A DNA stretch of 64,000 nucleotides from Plantactinospora mayteni. GTDB taxonomy: Bacteria > Actinomycetota > Actinomycetes > Mycobacteriales > Micromonosporaceae. A model generated the notes under the pieces. It saw nothing but the letters and a program-made list of their open reading frames with translations. It was not told where the DNA came from and made no database searches. Positions 4,217 to 62,608 of this stretch are shown here, one piece after another. Where the stretch lies: positions 62,001 to 126,000 of the forward strand of contig NZ_BONX01000007.1 of the NCBI RefSeq assembly GCF_016862935.1, written 5' to 3'. Made by a program: the position numbers and the translations under genes. Each line of letters starts with the position of its first letter. Position 1 is the first letter of the stretch.

Positions 4217-4305
4217 TGAACCTCTTTTCGACCTCCCCGTCGCGGGTCCCGCGGCCCCGGGAAACGCGGGGCGCGGGCACGCGCCGCCCAGGTCGGAAAC
4301 GTTCG
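4217..4305 (+). repeat. Palindrome-ended interspersed element, copy A (89 bp)
   Basis: The left end TGAACCTCTTTTCGACCT is matched by an imperfect inverted copy at the right end (4291-4305). It shares ends, the CCCCG motif and a GC-rich core with copies at 11569-11660 and 37012-37103, and is in the same orientation as the latter. It lies between the response regulator and the reductase gene, in 235 bases otherwise without a gene. No transposase is encoded, so it resembles a MITE or a repetitive palindromic element. Confidence 0.75.
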
Positions 4306-9993: not shown

Positions 9994-11103
9994 GTGAGAG
10001 CTGTGCTGCTGACCGGCGCGTCGGGGGAACTGCGGCTGGCGGAGTTGGTCCGTCCGGAGCCGGGGCCCGGGGAGGTACTGGTCGAGGTCGCCGCCTGCGG
10101 GGTCTGCCACACCGACCTGCACGTGCTCAAGGGCGAGGTGGCCTTTCCCACCCCTGCGGTACTGGGGCACGAGGTCTCCGGGCTGGTCCGGGGTACCGGG
10201 GCCGGGGTCACGGGCCTCGCCGAGGGGGACCGGGTCGCCGGCAGCTTCATCATGCCGTGCGGCGCCTGCCGGCACTGCGTACGCGGGCACGAGGATCTCT
10301 GCGAGCCGTTCTTCGCGTACAACCGGCTGCGGGGCACGCTCTACGACGGGCGTACCCGGCTGGCCCGGCCGGACGGCTCCCCGGTCTGGATGTACTCGAT
10401 GGCCGGCCTCGCCGAGTACGCCGTCGTACCGGCCACCGCCGTGTTCCGGGTGCCGGACAACCTCTCGCTGCGGGACGCGGCGGTACTCGGGTGCAGTGTC
10501 TTCACCGCCTACGGGGCGGTGCACAACGTCGCCCGGCTGCGACTGGGCGAGACGGTGGCGGTGGTCGCGGTCGGCGGGGTCGGCTCCAACATCGTGCCGC
10601 TCGCCCGGGCCAGCGGCGCGGCCACGGTGATCGCGGTGGACCGGAGCCCGGACAAGCTCGCCGCCGCGGCCGACCTCGGCGCGACGCACCTGGTGGACGC
10701 CGCCCGGGAGGACGTCCGGGCCAGGATCGCCGAGATCACCGGCGGCCGGGGTGTCGACGTCGCGTTCGAGGTGCTCGGCCGGACGGAGACCTTCGAACTG
10801 GCCCTGGACCTGCTCGGTGACGGTGGCCGGGCGGTGATGGTGGGGATCGCCCCGGCCGGCGTGACCGGGCGGATCGACATCACCCGGCTGGTCCGGCGCA
10901 AGCTCCAGGTGCTCGGCTCGTACGGCGCGCGGGCCCGTACCGACATGCCGGCGCTGTTGCACCTGGTGGCGCAGGGGGTGATCCGGCCCGGCCAGGTCAT
11001 CAGCCGGCGGTACGGCCTGGCCGACGCGGCGGCGGCGTACGCGGCCCTGGACCGGGGCGAGATCGTCGGGCGGGCCGTGGTCGAGGTCGCCGACCTGGAG
11101 TGA
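9994..11103 (+). CDS. Zinc-dependent alcohol dehydrogenase (MDR family)
   Basis: 369-residue medium-chain dehydrogenase. The catalytic-zinc motif CGVCHTDLHV has Cys38 and His39, GHE follows at about residue 58, and four structural-zinc cysteines lie in CGACRHCVRGHEDLC. The nucleotide-binding turn is VGGVGSN. The GTG at 9994 follows GAAAGGG. It is 50 bases after the dioxygenase and on the same strand, so it probably oxidises or reduces an aldehyde/alcohol intermediate of the aromatic pathway, as 2-hydroxymuconic-semialdehyde-type or benzylic alcohol dehydrogenases do. The exact substrate is unknown. It is only distantly like the fdhA product of the same operon, which carries a different insertion pattern. 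Confidence 0.9.
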   Translation: MRAVLLTGASGELRLAELVRPEPGPGEVLVEVAACGVCHTDLHVLKGEVAFPTPAVLGHEVSGLVRGTGAGVTGLAEGDRVAGSFIMPCGACRHCVRGHEDLCEPFFAYNRLRGTLYDGRTRLARPDGSPVWMYSMAGLAEYAVVPATAVFRVPDNLSLRDAAVLGCSVFTAYGAVHNVARLRLGETVAVVAVGGVGSNIVPLARASGAATVIAVDRSPDKLAAAADLGATHLVDAAREDVRARIAEITGGRGVDVAFEVLGRTETFELALDLLGDGGRAVMVGIAPAGVTGRIDITRLVRRKLQVLGSYGARARTDMPALLHLVAQGVIRPGQVISRRYGLADAAAAYAALDRGEIVGRAVVEVADLE

Positions 11104-11528
11104 CGTGGGCGCGGCCTGCACGAGTCAATTGACCTGGCTGGACCGACCCGGACTGGCGGTGGCGGCCCGTCATTTGCGTATCGACCGGTCCCGTACCGTT
11201 TCATATTTTAACCGGGACGTAACGTTTGACGAACGTCAGGGATCCCGGTCGACCTGGAGTGTCGCGGACCGCCGGTTGGCGTCGACACGACCAGGGGCGG
11301 CGGCACCACCAGGTACGACTCTTGCACGCATCCCCTGGGCACCGGTCGCCCCTCCTACGGATGACGCCCAGCCCGACCGTCGACAGTGGTCCGCGCCGCG
11401 ATCGACGCCCGCAACCTGCCGGAAATCAGCACCGCCGTCGTGACGTCCCGCCAGGGCCGCGTCCCGTTGCCGGACCTCCGACGGCTCGCTTGCCCGTTCC
11501 TGGGCACCTGACGCATAGGAGACAGCGA
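11104..11528. other. 425-bp leader region before the solute-binding protein gene
   Basis: Holds the only AT-rich stretch of the neighbourhood, TTTCATATTTTAACC around 11200-11212, usable as a -10 (TATTTT at 11204-11209), followed by a small inverted repeat ACGTT-n5-AACGT at 11222-11236 that could be an operator. The remaining ~280 bases to the next start hold no recognised riboswitch. A 41-codon frame starting at GTG 11386 and ending at 11511 has coding-like composition but no ribosome site. Confidence 0.4.
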
Positions 11529-12713
11529 ATGGACACGTCGGCTTCCCGGAACCGCGGGCTTCGGTCACTGAACCTTCTTCCATCTGAACCGCGCGGCGGG
11601 TGCGCCCCGACTTCCGCCCGCGGCCACGACGGACCGCAGGGGGAGGTCGAAAAGAGTTCACTTCCCCACGGTCGCCGGGCGTTTCTCGGTATGGTCGCGC
11701 TCGGACTCGGCGCGCCGGTGCTGGCGGCCTGCGGCGACGACTCGGCCGCCGGCGGCGGCGGTTCCGGCGGTGGCTCGTCCAAGCTGACCTTCCTCAGCGT
11801 CATCCCGCTGGCGAGCATCTCCAACGCACCGGAACTGCTCGCGGACACCGGCGGTCACTTCGCCAAGCAGGGACTGGACGTCACGTTCCAGGTGACCCAG
11901 GGTTCCCCGCCGGCGATCCAGACGGTGTTGGCCGGCTCGGCCCTGCTGACGAAGATCGGTGACATCGAGACGATCACCGCGATCTCGGACAAGAACGCTC
12001 CGTTGGTGAATCTGGGTGGGGTGGAGAAGCAGGGCCTGCTGCGGTTCATGTCGAGCAAGCGGAAGCCGCTGACGAAGCCGGAGGACTTCCGGGGCGTGAC
12101 GATGGGGTTGCCGTCGACGGGTGGGACGAGCGAGAAGACCCTCGATCTGGTGCTGGCTTCGGCGGGTATCCCGAAGGACTCCGTTAAGCGGCAGGTGGTC
12201 GGGTTGGCGCCGGGTGTGTTCGAGTTGGTGAAGTCGGGTCGGATCGACGGCTACATCGTCTCGCTGGACACCTCGCTGTCCGTGCTCCAGCAGCAGCCGG
12301 ACGCGGTGGCCTTCGCGCCCAGTTCGGTGATCGCGGCCGGCAGCCAGGCGTACGCCACCTCGAAGGCGCAACTGGCGGAGGCGGGCAACCAGGACAGGAT
12401 CCGCAAGTTCCTCCAGGCGATCGCCGACGCGATCACCTTCATGGTCGACGACGAGAAGAACGAGTTCAAGGAGACGCTGCGGCTGATCGGCAGCAAGCAC
12501 GACGTCCCGTCCTTCAAGGATCCGGGAGTCGCGGTCGAGGCGCTGAAGCTCTTCGTGAAGTCGTGGACCGTGGACGGCGTCGACAAGGTCGTACACACCA
12601 ACCCGCAGACCTGGCGCTCGACGTACGACGAGATGGCCAAGTCCGGGCTCGTACCGGCCGGCAAGGACCCGGTGCAGTGGTTGAACGCTGACTACGCCCC
12701 GACCGTCTCCTGA
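11529..12713 (+). CDS. ABC-type solute-binding lipoprotein (NMT1/TauA/SsuA-like) with inserted leader
   Basis: Extracytoplasmic binding protein of the NMT1/SsuA type, 394 residues as read. The twin-arginine lipoprotein signal is HGRRAFLGMVALGLGAPVLA with lipidated Cys68 (LAAC), followed by a Gly/Ser linker and the binding domain with the periplasmic-binding motif IPLASISNAPE. The only start with a good ribosome site is ATG 11529 (AGGAGAC 5 bases upstream). Residues 14-44, between this start and the RR motif, are encoded by palindromic element copy B. No ATG, GTG or TTG lies between the element and the RR, so the leader is unusually long. No permease or ATPase gene is adjacent. It closes the aromatic cluster and may bind its substrate. 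Confidence 0.85.
   Translation: MDTSASRNRGLRSLNLLPSEPRGGCAPTSARGHDGPQGEVEKSSLPHGRRAFLGMVALGLGAPVLAACGDDSAAGGGGSGGGSSKLTFLSVIPLASISNAPELLADTGGHFAKQGLDVTFQVTQGSPPAIQTVLAGSALLTKIGDIETITAISDKNAPLVNLGGVEKQGLLRFMSSKRKPLTKPEDFRGVTMGLPSTGGTSEKTLDLVLASAGIPKDSVKRQVVGLAPGVFELVKSGRIDGYIVSLDTSLSVLQQQPDAVAFAPSSVIAAGSQAYATSKAQLAEAGNQDRIRKFLQAIADAITFMVDDEKNEFKETLRLIGSKHDVPSFKDPGVAVEALKLFVKSWTVDGVDKVVHTNPQTWRSTYDEMAKSGLVPAGKDPVQWLNADYAPTVS
11569..11660 (-). repeat. Palindrome-ended interspersed element, copy B (92 bp), inside a coding region
   Basis: Inverted relative to copies A and C. Its left part, TGAACCGCGCGGCG, and right part, GGACCGCAGGGGGAGGT, match the reverse complement of copy C (37012-37103), and the length is identical at 92 bp. 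It has no stop codon in the frame of the surrounding lipoprotein gene and is therefore read through into the signal peptide. Confidence 0.8.
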
Positions 12714-12721
12714 CCACGGAG

Positions 12722-12767
12722 CTGATCACTACCCCGCGATACGCAGGTACCGCAGGGTAGTGATCAG
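12722..12767. terminator. Bidirectional hairpin terminator between convergent genes
   Basis: Perfect 13-bp inverted repeat, CTGATCACTACCC at 12722-12734 and its complement at 12755-12767, with a 20-base loop. It begins 8 bases after the binding-protein stop and lies before the end of the opposing amidohydrolase gene. No U-tract follows, as is usual in high-GC actinomycetes. Confidence 0.8.
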
Positions 12768-12781
12768 AGTAGTGGCAGTGA

Positions 12782-14311
12782 TCAGCGTGGTCGGCCCATG
12801 CAGGGACAGCCCACCGTGGCGGGGGCATCGGCGGGGACCGCCCTCGCCGCGGCCTCGACCTCGGCGAGCATGCGCTCCCGCTCTTCGGCGGAGATGTATC
12901 GGCCCCGCACCACCACCGCCCGGATCCGCTGGGTGTTGCGGATGTCGTCGAGCGGGTTGGCGTCCAGTAGCACCAGGTTGGCCAGATTGCCGCGCCGGAT
13001 CGTCCCCTCGAGGTCCTGCCGGCCGAGGAACCGGGCCGGCTCGAGGGTCGCCGCTTGAAGCGCCTGGATGGGGGTGAGACCCGCCCGCACGAGCAGCGCC
13101 AGCTCGTCGTGCAAGGCGAACCCGGGAAAGCACCCCGGCGTGGCGCTGTCGGTGCCCGCCAGCATCGGCACCCCGGCCCGGCGCATCTCGTCGACCAGCC
13201 GGAGCTGGCGGTCGAAAAGCTCCCGGTGCTGGGCAACCTCGGTCGGACCGCGGCCGGCCGCGAACAACTCGTCCAGCGCCCACCACCATTCCCCGGCCGT
13301 GACGGCCGGCAGATATTTCAGCCGCTCGTCGGTTCGCGACACCTCGTCGGGCATGGCGATTGCCCGCATCGCGATGAGGGTCGGGACCTGCCTGGACTGG
13401 TTGGCGACGAATCCGGCGAAGACCGCAGCCGCCTTGCCGGGATGGTAGCTCTGCGCGGCCAGCCAGTTCAACGGATGTACCTGGTTGAACCAGCTATTGT
13501 AGTCACCAGGCTCGATCCGGATCTCGGCGATCGCCCGGCGTATCTCCGCTTCCCGGCTGGAGGTCGAATACCACGTCCCCCACATGTGTTCGAGGCTGCG
13601 CTGCCCGGCCTGACTGGCCTCGGTGATCGGCACGTTGTCAGGGCAGTGCCCGGCGAACGGGATTTGTTGGCGTCGAGCCTCGTCGACAACGGCGAAGTAT
13701 GCCTCGGGAGACAGTCGTGAGTAGACCTTGACGAAGTCCGCACCCTCCCGCACGACCCGGCGGACCGCCGCTCGCGCCTCCGCCTCGTTGGTCACCTCGA
13801 TGTACGACACCGCGTTCAGGTCCGCCCAGAGACTCGGCGCGCCGTCGATCAAAGGGCTCGCGATGATCGAGCGTGGGCCCAGTAGGCTGCCGGCCTCGAC
13901 CCGATCCCGCCACCGGTGGAGATGGTCGGCTCCCGCCATCTCGCGCACCGTGGTGATCCCGTTCGCGATGTACAGCGGTGGGATGATCGCCTCATGCACG
14001 TCACTGTGGACGTGCATGTCACACAGACCCGGGATCAGGAACCTTCCCGTGCCGTCGACGACCGTCGCACCAGCCGGTACGCGGATATCGTGCCGCCCAG
14101 CCAGCCCGATGATCCGATCCCCTTCGACGACCACGGTTTGGTCTGGCCTTGACGGCCCACCGGTGGTGTCGATCACCGTGACCCCGACGAACGCGATCAC
14201 GCTTCGCCTCGCCGCACTCGCGGGCGCCGATTGAGTCAGTCCTATCACTGCGCCAGCGCCCGCGGCCAACCCGGCCCGCAAGACATTCCGACGAGAGATG
14301 CTGTGCAGCAC
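12782..14311 (-). CDS. Exported amidohydrolase (imidazolonepropionase/prolidase-like)
   Basis: 509-residue metal-dependent amidohydrolase carrying a Tat signal (SISRRNVLRAGLAAGAG, cleavage near APASA-A). The TIM-barrel metal motifs are LCDMHVHSD (first HxH), VKVYSRL with the bridging Lys region, GHCP and LEHMW (metal histidines) and LAGTDSA with the catalytic Asp. The C-terminal ANLVLLDANPLDDI strand closes the beta-sandwich as in other members. The product should act outside the membrane on a cyclic amide, dipeptide or related compound; the substrate is unknown. It is a single-gene unit: convergent with the binding-protein gene across a terminator, and separated upstream by 281 bases. Confidence 0.9.
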   Translation of the reverse strand: MLHSISRRNVLRAGLAAGAGAVIGLTQSAPASAARRSVIAFVGVTVIDTTGGPSRPDQTVVVEGDRIIGLAGRHDIRVPAGATVVDGTGRFLIPGLCDMHVHSDVHEAIIPPLYIANGITTVREMAGADHLHRWRDRVEAGSLLGPRSIIASPLIDGAPSLWADLNAVSYIEVTNEAEARAAVRRVVREGADFVKVYSRLSPEAYFAVVDEARRQQIPFAGHCPDNVPITEASQAGQRSLEHMWGTWYSTSSREAEIRRAIAEIRIEPGDYNSWFNQVHPLNWLAAQSYHPGKAAAVFAGFVANQSRQVPTLIAMRAIAMPDEVSRTDERLKYLPAVTAGEWWWALDELFAAGRGPTEVAQHRELFDRQLRLVDEMRRAGVPMLAGTDSATPGCFPGFALHDELALLVRAGLTPIQALQAATLEPARFLGRQDLEGTIRRGNLANLVLLDANPLDDIRNTQRIRAVVVRGRYISAEERERMLAEVEAAARAVPADAPATVGCPCMGRPR

Positions 14312-25638: not shown

Positions 25639-26494
25639 CCCCGGCGACCGGCCCGGCACGCCCCGGCTGGACGTGGCCCGGCTCGATGGCCGACTGGGCG
25701 TGGCCCGACTGGGCGTGGCCCGGCTCGACGGCCGACTGGGCGTGGCCCTGTTGGACGTGGCCCGGCTCGACGGCCGCCTGAACGTGGCCCTGTTGGACGT
25801 GGCCCGGCTCGACGGCCGGCTCGGCGGAATCCCACCCGGCGGATCCGCCGCGCCTCCGGCCATCGGCCGGCTCGGTCCCCTCCGGACCGGTCAGCACGAA
25901 GAAGGCACCGGCAGGACTGTCCCCGAGGCGCGCGGGGACCTCCTCGGCGGCGGAGAGACCGCAGGCCCGGACGATCCGGGCGAACTCTTCGGCCGGGGCG
26001 TCGTCGTAGATCTGCACGACGATCCGGCCCCGGGGTGTCAGCATCGCGGGCAGCCGGCGCAGCAGGTCGGCGGCCTCGGCCTCGGTCAGGTAGTAGACGA
26101 CCTCGCGGAGCAGGATCGCGTCGTACCGGCACGCGGTGTCGAAGGTGCGGATGTCGGCCACCTCGAAGGTGCTGTCCGGCCGGTCCAGCGCCCGGGCCGC
26201 CTCGATCGCCCGCGAACTGAGGTCCACGCCGTGGTAGTGCCGGTAGCGACCCGGCGCCAGCGGCAGGTTCGCACTGGTACCGCAGCCCAGGTCCAGGATC
26301 GTCGGCCGGGGTGCCCAGGTCTCGATCAGCGCCAGCGGCATGTTCCCGTCGGACATGTCGTCGAGATAGCGCCAGAACCCCAACGCGTACTGCGCGTTCC
26401 ACCACGCCCGGTTGAGCCTGGGGTTCGATCGGATCAGCACCTGTACCGGAACTCGGATCAGCCGTGCCACCGCACGGACCAGCGCATTCGACAT
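25598..26494 (-). CDS. Class I SAM methyltransferase with C-terminal tetradecapeptide repeats
   Basis: 298 residues. A Rossmann methyltransferase core (about 60-200) has the SAM motif LDLGCGTSANLPL, the acidic HGVDLSSR and motif II/III around DAILLREVVYY. The last ~60 residues are 3.7 copies of a 14-residue unit (EPGHVQQGHVQAAV-like), His/Gln/Gly-rich and encoded by a 42-bp tandem repeat. The tail ends in a 41-base overlap with the converging SARP gene, which suggests that the repeat expansion extended the frame past an earlier stop. The acceptor is unknown; position favours a sugar or lipid intermediate of the cluster. Confidence 0.85.
   Translation of the reverse strand: MSNALVRAVARLIRVPVQVLIRSNPRLNRAWWNAQYALGFWRYLDDMSDGNMPLALIETWAPRPTILDLGCGTSANLPLAPGRYRHYHGVDLSSRAIEAARALDRPDSTFEVADIRTFDTACRYDAILLREVVYYLTEAEAADLLRRLPAMLTPRGRIVVQIYDDAPAEEFARIVRACGLSAAEEVPARLGDSPAGAFFVLTGPEGTEPADGRRRGGSAGWDSAEPAVEPGHVQQGHVQAAVEPGHVQQGHAQSAVEPGHAQSGHAQSAIEPGHVQPGRAGPVAGVRPGPAAPTTAAP
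25667..25820. repeat. 42-bp tandem repeat, 3.7 copies
   Basis: Units begin at 25667, 25709, 25751 and 25793. They differ by a few substitutions and are a multiple of three bases, adding 14 residues each to the C-terminus of the methyltransferase. Confidence 0.92.
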
Positions 26495-26593: not shown

Positions 26594-27889
26594 TCAGCCG
26601 GTCAGCGCGGGGTCGACACCCCGGCGTGGGCCGAGCCGGCGCCGGTGCACGTACTGGGCGAGCAGCAGCCCGCCCGCGCCGACCGCCACCTCGCTGAGCG
26701 CGCAGACCAGTCGACTGGTCAGCACCACCGGGGCGGCGACCGACACCGGCATCACGGTGGCGAGTCCCACCATCAGTACCGCCTCCCGGACGCCCAGCCC
26801 GTCCGGTACGACCATCACCAGCAGCCCGGCCACGGTCGCGGCGGCGAAGCCGGCCACACAGACCAGGTAGGAGCGCAGCGGCGGGGCGCCGGCGGTCACC
26901 GCCAGCAGCCAGAGGTGGTGCCCGGAGATCACCCAGGAGAGCGACTGCGTGGTGATCGCCCGCCGGATGCCGGTCCGGGACGCGCTGACCTGTGGCGGTG
27001 GCCGCCGCAGCAGTCGTGCCGCCCCGGCGAGCCCCCGGTTGAGCAGCTCCGGGCGGACGAAGAGCGCCACCAGCGGCAGTACGGCGAGCAGCATCCAGCC
27101 GGTCGCCCGGTCCAGTACCGCCGGCCCGGCCGCGAGGCCGACGGTCATCCCGGTCAGCGCCACCACCACCCAACTGAGCAGGAAGACACCGGCCAGCCGG
27201 ACCGCCCCGACGTTGATCTCCTTCCCCATCCTGAGCAGCACCGGCAGCGCGACGAACCGGCCCGGGACGAACTTGGCGAGGAACCCGACGAAGAACAGCC
27301 GGGCGGCGGTCCACCGGTCCACCGCCGCGCCGAGGTCGACGAAGAGCGCCTGCCAGGAGTGGTACCCGAGCAGCAGCCCGACCGAGTTGACCAGCAGGGC
27401 GCCGCCCAGCACCAGTCCGACCTGGACCGGGTCGAGTCGCTGCGCCAGCTCGCGGACCGGGGTCCAGTCCTGGTCCCGCAGGAACAGCGCCAGCCCGACC
27501 GTCAGGGCCAGCACGAAGACCACGACCAGCAACTGGTTGACTCGCCGCCACCAGCCTGACCCCCGCCCGGCCAGCCGTCGCACCAACTCGACCGGCCCGC
27601 CGCCGCCAGGCCCGCCGCCCGCCCCGGTCGGCCTGCCGGAGGCGTCCGGGCTGGTCGAATCGCCTGTGCCGGTCGGGTCGCCCGAGCTGGTCGGGTCGCC
27701 TGTGCTGGTCGGGTCGCCTGTGCTGGTCGGGTCGCCTGTGCCGGTCGGGTCGCCCGAGCTGGACGGGCTGCCTGAGCTGGACGGGTTGGTCCGGCTGGTC
27801 GGGTCGTTCGAGCCGCCCGGGGCCGGTGCCGTCGCCGGTTGGGGCGCGGCGGGGTCGACGGCGTCCGGGTGATCCGTCGCGCGGTTCAC
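26594..27889 (-). CDS. LPG-synthase/flippase-like integral membrane protein (UPF0104)
   Basis: 431 residues from a GTG that overlaps the upstream glycosyltransferase stop (GTGA). Residues 1-110 are a Pro/Thr/Ser/Gly/Asp-rich tract with hexapeptide repeats (GDPTST-like, 18-bp DNA units). About eight membrane helices follow, with the family signatures FLAKFVPGRF and VVPDGLGVREAVL. This is the membrane half of MprF-like proteins and of AglD-type transporters, which move lipid-linked material across the membrane. No lysyl-transferase domain is present. It is probably the flippase or a lipid-modifying partner of the glycosyltransferases. Confidence 0.85.
   Translation of the reverse strand: MNRATDHPDAVDPAAPQPATAPAPGGSNDPTSRTNPSSSGSPSSSGDPTGTGDPTSTGDPTSTGDPTSSGDPTGTGDSTSPDASGRPTGAGGGPGGGGPVELVRRLAGRGSGWWRRVNQLLVVVFVLALTVGLALFLRDQDWTPVRELAQRLDPVQVGLVLGGALLVNSVGLLLGYHSWQALFVDLGAAVDRWTAARLFFVGFLAKFVPGRFVALPVLLRMGKEINVGAVRLAGVFLLSWVVVALTGMTVGLAAGPAVLDRATGWMLLAVLPLVALFVRPELLNRGLAGAARLLRRPPPQVSASRTGIRRAITTQSLSWVISGHHLWLLAVTAGAPPLRSYLVCVAGFAAATVAGLLVMVVPDGLGVREAVLMVGLATVMPVSVAAPVVLTSRLVCALSEVAVGAGGLLLAQYVHRRRLGPRRGVDPALTG
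27650..27793. repeat. 18-bp minisatellite, about eight units
   Basis: Units of the form CTGGTCGGGTCGCCTGTG repeat in register and encode the GDPTST-like hexapeptides in the N-terminal tail of the membrane protein. The array is frame-preserving. Confidence 0.85.
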
Positions 27890-36213: not shown

Positions 36214-37014
36214 GTGAACACGGGAAGTCCCGGATTCGTCCTGCCCGGCGCGGCCGTGGTGGTGACCGGGGCGGGTTCCGGCATCGGCGCGGCGCTGGCC
36301 ACCCGGTTCGCCGCCGAGGGTGCCCGGGTGCTGGTCAACGACCTCGACGCCGACGCGGCCCGGGCGGTCGCGGCCCGGATCGGCGGCGAGGTCTTCCCCG
36401 CCGACATGGCCGACCCGGCTGCGGTGGCCGCGCTGGTCGGGTACGCCCGGGGCCGGTTCGGCCGGATCGACCTGTTCTGCGCCAACGCCGGAGTGCCCGG
36501 CACCGGAGGGCTGGACGCCGCCGACCACACCTGGGAGCACGCCTGGCGGGTCAACACCATGTCCCAGGTGTACGCCGCCCGCGAGCTGCTGCCCGACTGG
36601 CTGGCGGCCGGGCGCGGTCGACTCCTCGTCACCGCCTCGGCGGCCGGCCTGCTCACCCTGCTCGGCGCCGCTCCGTACTCGGTCTCCAAGCACGCGGCGG
36701 TGGCGTTCGCCGAGTGGCTGCGGGCGAGCTACGCCCACCGGGGAATCGTCGTGCAGGCGCTCTGCCCACAGGGTGTCCGCACGCCGATGCTGGAGCAGGG
36801 CGAAGGCCCCGGCGCCGCCCTGCTCACCGCCGGGGCGATCACCCCGGAGCAGGTCGCCGAGCTGGTGGTGGCGGCGCTGACCGACGACCGGTTCCTGGTG
36901 CTGCCACATCCAGAGGTGGCGACGTACTACACCCGGCGGGCCACCGACCCGGACCGCTGGCTGCACGGGATGAACCGGGTACAGCGCGACCTCGAACGGT
37001 CGGCCGAGGACTGA
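36214..37014 (+). CDS. Short-chain dehydrogenase/reductase
   Basis: 266 residues. Classical SDR: cofactor motif TGAGSGIGAAL, NAG in CANAGVPG, catalytic Ser in TASAAG, and YSVSKHA with the catalytic Tyr and Lys. The Asp after beta-2 (NDLDAD) favours NAD(H). GTG 36214 is chosen because it begins the conserved part and follows a leaderless-type -10. The TGA stop at 37012-37014 is the first three bases of palindromic element copy C, so the last residues may differ from the ancestral C-terminus. Substrate unknown; divergent from the membrane protein/oxidase pair. Confidence 0.9.
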   Translation: MNTGSPGFVLPGAAVVVTGAGSGIGAALATRFAAEGARVLVNDLDADAARAVAARIGGEVFPADMADPAAVAALVGYARGRFGRIDLFCANAGVPGTGGLDAADHTWEHAWRVNTMSQVYAARELLPDWLAAGRGRLLVTASAAGLLTLLGAAPYSVSKHAAVAFAEWLRASYAHRGIVVQALCPQGVRTPMLEQGEGPGAALLTAGAITPEQVAELVVAALTDDRFLVLPHPEVATYYTRRATDPDRWLHGMNRVQRDLERSAED

Positions 37015-37103
37015 ACCTTTTTCAACCTCCCCGTGCGGTCCGACGAGCCGCAAGGTCAGCGGCGGTGCGTGCGCGCCGCGCGGTTCAGGTTGAAAAGGGT
37101 TCA
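37012..37103 (+). repeat. Palindrome-ended interspersed element, copy C (92 bp), best preserved
   Basis: Terminal inverted repeats of 17 bp with one mismatch: TGAACCTTTTTCAACCT at the left, and the complement of TGAACCCTTTTCAACCT at the right (37087-37103). The core is GC-rich. Same orientation as copy A, opposite to copy B. It fills most of the space between the SDR gene and the opposing barstar gene and may act as their shared terminator. Confidence 0.82.
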
Positions 37104-47913: not shown

Positions 47914-48831
47914 GTGTCCGGCACCTCCGAGCCCGTGGCACCCCCGACCGGCCCGGCCGAGTCGCCAGGCCCGGCGGCCGGGCGGCGGCGGGAACTGCGC
48001 GCCGACTGCGAGCGCTGCTTCGGGCTGTGCTGCGTGGTGCCGGCCTTCGCCGCCTCGTCGGACTTCGCCATCGACAAGCCCGCCGGCCGGGCCTGCCCCA
48101 ATCTCCGCGCCGACCACCGCTGCGGCATCCACCGCGATCTGCGGGAGCGTGGCTTCGCCGGGTGTACGGTCTTCGACTGCTTCGGGGCCGGCCAGCAGAT
48201 CGCCCAGGTCACCTACCAGGGCCGGGACTGGCGGACCAACCCGGAGATCGCGGCGGGGATGTTCGAGGTGTTCCCGGTCGTGCGGCAGCTCCACGAACTG
48301 CTCTGGTATCTGACCGAGGCCCTGGCGCTGCGCCCGGCCGAACCGCTGCACACCGAGCTGGCCACCGCCCGCGCCACGACCGAACGGCTCGCCGACGGCG
48401 ACCCGTCCTCGCTGGTCGCCCTCGACGTCCCGACGCACCGCCGAGCCGTCAACGAGCTGCTGCTGCGCGCCAGCGAGCAGATCCGGTCCCGAGCCGGCCG
48501 CAGCGGGAGCGACCGGCGCGGAGCCGAGCTGATCGGGGCCGATCTGCGCCGTACCGACCTGGTCGGCGCCAACCTGCGCGGGGCGTACCTGATCGGGGCC
48601 GACCTGCGCGGCGTCGACCTGACCCTGGCCGACCTCACCGGGGCGGACCTGCGCGGCGCCAACCTGCGCGGTGCCGACCTGACCGGTGCCCTCTTCCTCA
48701 CCCAAGCCCAACTCGACGCCGCCACCGGCGACGCCCGGACCGCCCTACCGCCCGCCCTGCGCCGCCCGCCCCACTGGCACCAACCACCCACCCCGCCCCG
48801 CCGCCGCAGGGCGGGTCGTTCCCGATCTTGA
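47914..48831 (+). CDS. YkgJ-like Cys cluster plus pentapeptide-repeat protein
   Basis: 305 residues from GTG 47914. Residues ~28-95 hold eight cysteines beginning [10 protein letters not shown], a CxxCx3CC arrangement like the YkgJ metal-chelating domain. A helical middle follows. Residues ~205-265 are about 12 pentapeptide units of A(D/N)LxG type ([20 protein letters not shown] and neighbours), which fold as a right-handed beta helix. The tail is Pro/Arg-rich. Pentapeptide proteins can mimic DNA or scaffold other proteins. The combination is found in other actinomycetes, but its job is unknown. It is not in an operon. Confidence 0.85.
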
Positions 48832-54650: not shown

Positions 54651-54780
54651 GGCGGTCCAGCCCGTCGGCCACCTTCGGCGGTCCAGCCCGTCGGCCATCT
54701 CTGGCGGCCCAGCCCATCGGCCACCTCTGGCGGTCCGGCCCATCGGCCATCTTCGGCGGCCCAGCCCACCAGCCACCTCG
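54651..54780. repeat. 26-bp tandem repeat, five units
   Basis: Five consecutive 26-bp units (GGCGGTCCAGCCCGTCGGCC plus six variable bases) occupy the 229-bp gap between eda and the CapA-type gene. The period is not a multiple of three, consistent with non-coding DNA. Confidence 0.92.
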
Positions 54781-60337: not shown

Positions 60338-60391
60338 CTCCGACCTGCCGGCATGGCGGAGATCACCCACGGTAGTCGACCGCGCGTGGCC

Positions 60392-60493
60392 GCTGTCCGG
60401 TGGCGATCTCGACCGTGCCTCGGGTGCGGCTGCTGTCCGGTGGCGATCTCGACCGTGCCTCGGGTGCGGCTGCTATCCGGTGGCGATCTCGCC
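60392..60493. repeat. 40-bp tandem repeat, 2.5 units, at the sialidase 3' end
   Basis: Units start at 60392 and 60432, with a partial third at 60472-60493 that is the very end of the sialidase gene. The last ~20 coding bases (reading EIATG and stop) have thus been duplicated twice downstream of the stop codon; one base change in the gene copy (TAG versus CAG) makes the stop. Confidence 0.88.
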
Positions 60494-62608
60494 GCCCCAG
60501 TTCTCCTGCTGGATGCCGGCGGCGCTGTCCCACCACCAGTGACCCAGCTCACCGGTTGCGGTGGCGCCGAAGACGTGCTGCTGGGCGCCGACCACCAGGG
60601 CGATCGGGTCGGAGTGCACCGTGCCGGGCCAGGCGGCGTACCGGACCGAGTAGTCCGGGTCCCACCACCAGTGCCCGAGCCGGTTGCCCGCCTCCCGGGC
60701 GAAGACGTGCTGCTGGGCGCCGTGCACGAAGGAGATCGGGTCGCCGGCCAGCGCCGACCCGCCGGCCCAGACCTGGCGGGCGACGGTGAGCGCACCCGGG
60801 CTGCGATACCAGTGCGCCAGCGCGTTGTCGGCGGTCCGGCCGAAGACGTGCAGTTGGCCGTTGTGCACGAAGGCGGTCAGCCCGCCCCGGACCGAGCCGC
60901 CCCAGGACTCCTGCCGGACCCCGACCGGGACGTCCGGATCCCACCACCAGTGCTGGAGCGTCCCGTCCGGGCCGGCCGCCCAGACGTGCTGCTGGTCGCC
61001 GTACCGGATCGAGACCGGGTCGCCGGCCAGGCTGCCCGGCCCGGCCCAGGTCTGGCTGCGCAGCGCGCGGGTGCCGTGGTCGTACCACCAGTGCCGCAGG
61101 CTGCCGTCGGTGCCTCGGGCGAAGGCGTGCTGCTGGTAGTCGGTCACCAGCACGGTCGGGGCACCCGCCAGCGATCCGGCGCCCGCCCACACCTCCGAGC
61201 GCAGCGACGAGCTGCCCGAGTCCCAGAGGCGGTGCACCAGCGAGCCGTCGGTGCCCCGGGCGAAGGCGTGCTGCTGGTTCCGGTCGACGAAGGTGGCCAC
61301 CTTGCCGGTGATCCCGGAGCCCCAGGTGCCGCGCTTCACCTCTAAGGTCGGCTCCTGGAACCAGTGGTAGAGGCCGCCGCCGGGCGAGGCCGCGAAGACG
61401 TGCCGCTGGGCGGGATCCGCCGTCAGCAGCGCCGCCGACCGCTGGTTGCCGGTCAGCGACGACGGGTTCGGCGGCAGGTCCAGGTCACCCTCGGTGAACC
61501 GGACGAACCTGATCGAGTCGTACGGGCTGCTGCCCTCGCCGGCCTCGTAGAACACCCCGAAGCTGCCGTCGCCGAGGTCGAGCAGATCCGAGTACGCCGC
61601 CGCCCCGGCGTGCACCAGCAGCCCCGCCGAGGCGTCCTGCCAGCTCAGTCCGCCGTCGAACGAGGAGCGGAGGGTCATCCGCTCCCGCTGGCCGTTGTCG
61701 CCCGCCGGCCCGGCGACCAGTACCCGGTCGTACGCGCTGCCCTGGTCGGTGGCCCGGATCGCCAGCGTGGACGCCTGCACGTCGTCGATCACCAGCCCGG
61801 GTACGGCGGTGAACGGCGCCCGCCAGCTCTGCCCGCCGTCCGTCGACACCGCGTACGCGGTGTGCGCGGTGGAGGTGGCGGACCTGCGCTCGTTGCGGGC
61901 CAGGGCGTAGAGCGAGCCGTCCGGCCGCTCGAAGACGCTGAGTTCCTGCACCTGGAGCGCGGGTGCGGCGGCCTGCGACTCGGCGCCGATCTGCCAGTTG
62001 AGGCCGCCGTCGTCGCTGTAGAGCAGCACCCCGCCCTTGCGCCCGTTCGTCTGGTGGTTCATCCCGACCACCAGCCGCCCGTCGTGGTCGCCCCGGGTGA
62101 GCTGGATGCCGTGCGCCGGCCCGGTGATCATGCTGCCCCAGCCGGGCAGCCGGGCCTGGTCGGAGATGTCGTCCGGGTCGGTCCAGGTCAGCCCGTCGTC
62201 GGTGCTGTGCTGGAGCCAGGGGGTGCGGTAATCCTGGGTACTGAGCAGGCTGATCCGGCCGCTGTCGGCGTCCACCACCGGGGTCGGGTTGTGCCGGGTA
62301 CTGCCGTTGCCGGCCGCGATCACCTGGAGCCGTTCCCAGGTACGCCCACCGGTGATGGAGCGGCGCAGCACGATGTCGATGTCGCCGGTGTCGCCACAGT
62401 CCCCGTTGCGCCCCTCGCCGAAGGCGAGCAGCGTGCCGACGTCGGTGCGTACCACGGCGGGGATGCGGACGCAGGCGTACCCGCCGTCGCCGTCCTTGAA
62501 CACCGTCACCGGCGCGGTCGCGGCCAGGCCGGGGGTTGCCGGCGGGAGACCCACCGCCAGCACGATCCCGGCCAGCGCGCCGGCCAGTCCTCTTCGGACA
62601 CCCACCAT
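60473..62608 (-). CDS. Secreted exo-sialidase with C-terminal seven-repeat propeller
   Basis: 711 residues. Sec signal (LAGALAGIVLAVGLP, cleavage near LAATA). Residues ~33-375 are a GH33 sialidase: YACVRIPAVV holds the first arginine of the triad, Asp boxes STDDGLTW, SDDGGLNW, STDGGQSW and SFDGGLSW follow, and FYEAGEGS carries the catalytic region Glu/Tyr. Residues ~395-711 are seven ~46-residue repeats with HVFARGTDGSLxHWWWD cores and WAGxGSLAGDP ends, as in PLL-type seven-bladed lectin propellers. The enzyme would bind glycans with the propeller and release terminal sialic acids outside the cell. ATG 62608 follows GGAGAAG. Confidence 0.92.
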   Translation of the reverse strand: MVGVRRGLAGALAGIVLAVGLPPATPGLAATAPVTVFKDGDGGYACVRIPAVVRTDVGTLLAFGEGRNGDCGDTGDIDIVLRRSITGGRTWERLQVIAAGNGSTRHNPTPVVDADSGRISLLSTQDYRTPWLQHSTDDGLTWTDPDDISDQARLPGWGSMITGPAHGIQLTRGDHDGRLVVGMNHQTNGRKGGVLLYSDDGGLNWQIGAESQAAAPALQVQELSVFERPDGSLYALARNERRSATSTAHTAYAVSTDGGQSWRAPFTAVPGLVIDDVQASTLAIRATDQGSAYDRVLVAGPAGDNGQRERMTLRSSFDGGLSWQDASAGLLVHAGAAAYSDLLDLGDGSFGVFYEAGEGSSPYDSIRFVRFTEGDLDLPPNPSSLTGNQRSAALLTADPAQRHVFAASPGGGLYHWFQEPTLEVKRGTWGSGITGKVATFVDRNQQHAFARGTDGSLVHRLWDSGSSSLRSEVWAGAGSLAGAPTVLVTDYQQHAFARGTDGSLRHWWYDHGTRALRSQTWAGPGSLAGDPVSIRYGDQQHVWAAGPDGTLQHWWWDPDVPVGVRQESWGGSVRGGLTAFVHNGQLHVFGRTADNALAHWYRSPGALTVARQVWAGGSALAGDPISFVHGAQQHVFAREAGNRLGHWWWDPDYSVRYAAWPGTVHSDPIALVVGAQQHVFGATATGELGHWWWDSAAGIQQENWGGEIATG

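Follow-up and report, generated by a model that had tools for sequence, protein, structure and literature searches.

A palindromic mobile element appears to have inserted in frame in the leader of a Tat lipoprotein gene of Plantactinospora mayteni, where it would be read as 31 residues of the n-region and tolerated by the protein; we put the probability of this reading at roughly 80%. Within it, comparison with related genes and with other copies of the repeat establishes at the DNA level that there was an insertion, that its length is exact, that the start codon and its Shine-Dalgarno sequence are conserved, that the frame is intact and that the element belongs to a family. The original prediction had placed such an element in this leader; what the present analysis adds is the 3-bp target duplication, the net gain of 93 bp, other in-frame insertions and the sites at start and stop codons. 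Throughout, the window is the whole stretch of 64,000 nucleotides that was analysed.

The lipoprotein leader and its empty site

The gene occupies positions 11529-12713 of the + strand and encodes an NMT1/THI5-like substrate-binding Tat lipoprotein of 394 residues with the element-encoded stretch in its leader, an assignment made from Pfam (PF09084, E=8.5e-22), lengths and orthologues. As had been predicted, it starts at ATG 11529 with AGGAGAC ahead of the element (Shine-Dalgarno and start together at 11518-11531, +; AGGAGACAGCGAATG, identical in the best orthologue), and its frame runs to TGA 12711-12713. The twin-arginine codons of GRRAFLG (11673-11678, +) and the lipobox LAAC (11721-11732, +) were likewise rightly placed beyond the element. 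From ATG 11529 up to the RR pair there are 48 residues, and the predicted leader, before processing, includes the stretch NLLPSEPRGGCAPTSARGHDGPQGEVEK.

The element itself is a MITE-like palindrome of subfamily 1, differing from the subfamily consensus by 10 substitutions, and lies at 11570-11659 (+), after the start codon and before the RR motif, at codons 13-14. Its terminal inverted repeats are GAACCTTCTTCCATCT on the left (11570-11585, +) and AGGTCGAAAAGAGTTC on the right (11644-11659, +), and it is bracketed by two copies of the target duplication ACT (11567-11569 and 11660-11662, both +). The 90-bp element and the 3-bp duplication thus make a net insertion of 93 bp, or 31 codons. The segment was at first given as 92 bp; it is the same segment, but the element proper measures 90 bp, and the longer figure includes one flanking base on each side.

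Aligning the gene with an orthologue that lacks the segment, as had been proposed, bears out the insertion. The best orthologue, from the same genus (G004:C1:6175603), is 88% identical over the mature part and, on sequence comparison, is the empty site for the element. Its Shine-Dalgarno sequence and start are those of the window gene, its leader begins MASSAPRNRGLLPL and continues to QQSRRAFLG and LAAC, and the pattern MxxSAxRNRGLxxL is common to both leaders. With 363 residues against 394 it is exactly 31 residues shorter, and its RR is preceded by 17 residues. The segment is absent too from a paralogue in the window genome and from relatives in G006, G004 (a second relative) and G031, in which 17, 17, 17 and 3 residues precede the RR. 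These four more distant relatives keep AGGAGAC, the spacer, the ATG and the RR layout, and the lipobox reads LAAC or LSAC in all five. Because the start is conserved in relatives without the segment, the window gene must have gained the 93 bp, and no orthologue was seen with the same leader segment but without similarity to the repeat, the segment being absent from the five relatives compared. This empty site, together with the repeat family described below, supports the earlier proposal that the element encodes about 31 residues of the n-region. MAFFT split the protein gap with the G004 orthologue over two places, so that the exact insertion site is fixed by the DNA ends and the duplication.

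Around the gene, an Rfam search of 11100-12800 gave no match up to E 0.1, and a promoter and terminator scan yielded nothing relevant. By eye, a hairpin without a T run (CTGATCACTACCC...GGGTAGTGATCAG, 12723-12768) can be seen between the lipoprotein gene and a convergent amidohydrolase-like gene. Three paralogues of the lipoprotein (83, 49 and 47% identity) lie inside 15 kb on another contig (G000:C3:303322-318330).

The element family

Searching the genome with the leader copy gives 40 scored matches, one of them the query's own locus (217 first-look candidates). For the element's 22-nt left end, with up to 3 mismatches allowed, there are 110 matches on many contigs, against 0 for the reversed control. 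The 99 loci fetched (39 non-window scored matches and 60 of the 100 listed left-end places) yielded, with the window, 104 copies. In 95 of these each end scores at least 7/10; the other 9 were dropped. The consensus terminal repeats are 16 bp long (GAACCTTTTTCAACCT / AGGTTGAAAAAGGTTC), and the length is exactly 90 bp in 66 of the 95 copies; at a 15% cut these 66 fall mainly into two subfamilies of 39 and 21. Identical 3-mers flank 55 of the 95 copies and non-identical ones the other 40, compared with a mean of 16.2 and a maximum of 30 in 2000 shuffles; all but one of the 55 (54/55) are ANT. The bases before and after the duplication are mostly C or G, giving a CANTG-like target. The family is a non-autonomous, MITE-like one of Plantactinospora, with about a hundred copies in this Micromonosporaceae genome, dispersed singly and not in tandem arrays.

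Two further copies lie in the window. One (37013-37102, -, 90 bp) makes the + strand TGA stop (37012-37014) of the gene on its left; the other (4218-4304, -) is old and diverged, 73% identical to the window query, and lies between genes. The window also holds five short-period tandem repeats, at 25642-25851, 27607-27822, 48474-48698, 54651-54780 and 60381-60500 (units of 42, 18, 15, 26 and 40 bp), some of which are probably coding.

At up to 2 mismatches the left end occurs in 7 of 121 genomes searched: 87 times in the window genome, 10 times in G006 (Plantactinospora endophytica NBRC 110450), twice in G037 and once each in G001, G003, G008 and G062, with 0 in G004. When ten of these genomes were searched more loosely with the 90-nt consensus, 21 matches turned up in G006, 11 in G001, 4 each in G003 and G037, 3 in G062 and a single one in each of G002, G004 and G005; G008 and G031 had none. 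These counts indicate that the family multiplied mainly in the window's species. An exact scan of a genome collection, which may omit the window's own genome, returned seven stretches, six from P. endophytica and one from Micromonospora craterilacus. Among the papers listed, from literature that takes in few subscription papers, we found none that describes such an element for Plantactinospora or Micromonospora.

The 90-bp element encodes no transposase, and no partner was found among 33 matches of three Pfam families. The terminal repeats occur at one of these 33 places, where the IS homology starts 46 bp from an element copy. This copy (L111, G000:C94:1500-3900) has non-matching flanks, and the neighbouring truncated IS5-type transposase region shares 94% identity with another on contig C81. 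In the ISL2 group of IS5 the duplication is typically ANT. Copies of the element have ANT duplications too; descent from that group is a possibility at most, and no IS with GAACCTTTTTCAACC ends was present among the matches searched for the three Pfam families.

Starting at the N of the A-NTG target, the reading frame stays open through 90 of the 95 copies forward and 88 in reverse; the remaining frames are open in 7 and 10 copies forward and 31 and 8 in reverse. A gene that takes up the element in the NTG phase therefore stays readable whichever way the element points; insertions in the other phases mostly bring in stops.

Copies inside and at the edges of genes

In-frame presence in conserved protein genes is found, by comparison with relatives that lack the insert, in three genes. 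Besides the lipoprotein, the zinc alcohol dehydrogenase L004 carries a 31-residue stretch between CLDAGT and LPGPQEVAGAVREL, where its G001 orthologue (93%) reads CLDAGTLSGPQAVAEAIREL and has exactly 31 fewer residues; the stretch is missing from the orthologues in G001, G006, G004 and G002, which are 86-94% identical over the first 218 residues. In the SARP-type regulator L037 the element stretch lies in the linker ahead of FVGRE, and homologues without it in G004 (51%) and G003 (52%) are 30 residues shorter at that point. Automatic calling gave 5 of 95 copies as interior. On checking by hand L004 remains: L035, L085 and L123 have a stop upstream of the element, and at L017 the gene seems to end naturally. 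Two copies that scored under the interior threshold, that of the window and L037, were added by hand. Even at the automatic count, interior insertions are strongly depleted relative to candidate target sites in the window (5/95 vs 29/75 CANTG sites, P 5e-8, and vs 168/395 sites of the looser SANTS form).

Many copies lie instead at gene edges, where codon-usage scoring assigned a coding phase to 65 of 190 flanks. Among 39 genes reading into an element, 25 do so in the phase that gives TGA (T from the duplication, GA from the element); this TGA is the actual stop in 24 of the 25, and the far side retains a stop there in 14 of the 25. Genes that read away from an element number 26; 20 of them are in the NTG phase, with ATG, GTG or TTG as the junction codon in 16. 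At L085, for example, GGGAGGACTGAGCAATG precedes the element and an ATG follows it; copies of this type suggest that insertion may have rebuilt a start codon under its Shine-Dalgarno sequence, adding 31 residues. A search for close orthologues of the L085 and L034 proteins found none (best 54% and 29%); the start-codon insertions are read from coding phase and are thus putative. The copy at L034 (G000:C4:296100-298300) occupies the start codon of a gene predicted to encode a periplasmic-binding lipoprotein (PF13407), which may be a second lipoprotein with 31 residues ahead of its signal. At L026 (G000:C7:332300-334500) a base change turns the left-edge TGA into TGG, and the incoming gene would run through the element.

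How far these edge phases exceed the expectation was judged against the CANTG or SANTS sites of the window only. The stop phase does not go beyond target preference (14/22 one-sided cases vs 8/11 CANTG, P 0.71, and 41/71 SANTS, P 0.80). The excess of the start phase is modest (10/13 vs 8/20 CANTG, P 0.07, and 31/88 SANTS, P 0.006), and stop/start junctions are enriched (6/95 copies vs 0/75 CANTG, P 0.035, and 1/395 SANTS, P 0.0003). A Shine-Dalgarno sequence precedes the left NTG in 6 of 16 start-phase cases and in 35 of 174 other ends, which is not convincing. These controls indicate that much of the edge pattern comes from the target motif and from purifying selection against interior hits.

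The ANTG target, the 93-bp net gain and the frame open in both orientations together raise the tentative, and rather doubtful, idea that the element is so constructed as to do no harm to coding DNA, a coding-compatible MITE that has been tagging proteins of its host, their leaders among them, throughout one actinomycete genome. If so, a copy landing on a start codon would recreate NTG under the old Shine-Dalgarno sequence and extend the protein by an N-terminal tag of 31 residues, a copy landing on a stop would recreate TGA, and in-frame insertion inside a gene would add a 31-residue module.

Probable consequences for the leader and relation to known systems

We suggest that a transposase acting in trans put the element at ACT, in codons 13-14 of the leader. 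The ribosome would still start at the original ATG, read the 31 element-encoded residues and continue into RRAFLG, the h-region and the lipobox, all of them unchanged. This would lengthen the Tat n-region from 17 to 48 residues, which the protein would tolerate, with export proceeding normally. The product is expected to be Tat-targeted, lipidated at the cysteine of LAAC and freed of the whole leader, and since the mature protein would then be without element residues, the site should be especially forgiving. The leader ahead of the RR seems poorly constrained in this lipoprotein family, the five relatives having either 3 or 17 residues there. For the Tat-specific xylanase signal of Streptomyces lividans, the available part of PMC5875014 describes a very long n-region (positions 38 and 41). 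According to the accessible text of PMC10924467, the very long n-region of an actinomycete Tat protein turned out to be a misplaced start codon; long n-regions can therefore be annotation errors, and here the conserved start argues against that.

The original prediction left a choice between tolerance as a long n-region and altered export; of the two we favour tolerance. It is fairly unlikely, in our judgement, that the in-frame element alters export or lipidation, in the sense that a longer, roughly neutral n-region slows Tat targeting or shifts the protein level and so has a mildly harmful or a regulatory effect. Altering single charges in the long xylanase n-region did change secretion about two-fold (PMC5875014, as far as the available text goes), and the strong fold of the consensus element, a single long RNA hairpin (z -5.9), could affect translation. 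The window copy, however, has lost most of this hairpin (z -1.5, with 14 of 200 shuffles folding as well or better; the copy at 37013-37102 is intermediate, z -4.2). Moreover, the low dN/dS of the lipoprotein gene relative to the G004 orthologue (dN 0.087, dS 0.42) is retained and the gene looks constrained, though this average also covers the time preceding the insertion.

Domestication of the element, with the encoded peptide retained for a function, is improbable. It would fit the lower pN/pS of the three interior copies (0.57 vs 0.97 in 63 others, a comparison with n=3 and no test attached), and in a first simulation from one majority sequence 65 of 66 open frames were observed against a mean of 55.1. 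That simulation ignored the subfamilies, and selection for an open frame was rejected when the better-controlled test, using two subfamily consensuses and private changes only, gave 59/60 open vs a mean of 57.1 (22% of runs reach the observed value); the reverse frame (58/60 vs 57.3) and column shuffles behaved alike. The open frame is inherited from the subfamily consensuses, with no sign of extra selection within copies, and the window copy itself has 7 non-synonymous and 3 synonymous changes relative to the consensus.

Slightly less probable still is that translation starts downstream, at ATG 11691 or an unusual start, leaving the element as 5' untranslated sequence only. Near the 3' end of the window element there is a purine-rich GGGGGAGG. 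Against a downstream start, no in-frame ATG, GTG or TTG occurs between ATG 11529 and ATG 11691 (a CTG at 11568-11570 spans the left end of the element), in agreement with the earlier statement that no start lies between the element and the RR motif; ATG 11691, beyond that motif, would drop the RR kept in five relatives; and the original Shine-Dalgarno sequence and ATG are intact. Finally, an ancient shared leader lost by the relatives, or an assembly artefact, is highly improbable, since we found no points in its favour, and the element belongs to a family, has a target duplication and is missing from each of the five relatives compared.

A tolerated insertion in the leader would have practical consequences. 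With filled and empty sites in close relatives, the cost or tolerance of an in-frame mobile insert is directly testable, and the lipoprotein leader offers a natural test of the permissible length of a Tat n-region. Annotators should note that the element can be the source of 31-residue N-terminal extensions that read (M/V/L)NLFQPEPRGA...EKGS.

The mycobacterial interspersed repetitive units (MIRUs) are likewise small repeats of actinobacteria; some occupy stop/start overlaps, where they are translated in frame. They form tandem arrays in mycobacteria, whereas the elements here are scattered over the genome and have terminal inverted repeats as well as a target duplication. In the accessible text of PMC3635867, MIRUs are mostly intergenic, with several inside two-component system genes. 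The Coxiella elements QMITE1 and QMITE2 also overlap genes, some in frame and some giving a stop or a C-terminal extension, but are 150-400 bp long with other direct repeats, compared with 90 bp here (PMC5896051, in part). ERIC/RU-1, the 107-bp form of Correia and YPAL/RU-2 are bacterial MITEs that likewise make in-frame fusions to reading frames; they differ in hosts and terminal repeats, most having TA termini (PMC2229807, in the portion available). YPAL even forms part of the signal peptide of YPO1552, which the same source gives as a putative new protein, whereas here an old conserved leader is interrupted (PMC2229807).

The Rickettsia palindromic elements, to which the window copy had been compared from the outset, fit as an analogy: they too are small palindromic mobile repeats with an open frame, present in frame within unrelated protein genes and tolerated there (PMC2229807, PMC10969869, as far as the available text of each goes). 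They are 105-146 bp long, compared with 90 bp here in an actinobacterial host, and their target duplication is listed as unknown in that part of PMC2229807, as against a 3-bp ANT duplication here. Few insertions here are interior and many lie at gene edges, and the likeness drawn here is one of behaviour. In-frame MITE fusions are thus already known from the parts of these papers that bear on RPE, ERIC, Correia, YPAL and QMITE. What is different here is the host, the ANT duplication, the 93-bp gain, the NTG frame open on both strands and the rebuildable start and stop codons. Mobile palindromes read within protein genes, a phenomenon of the Rickettsia type, appear in this case in a large-genome, free-living actinomycete.
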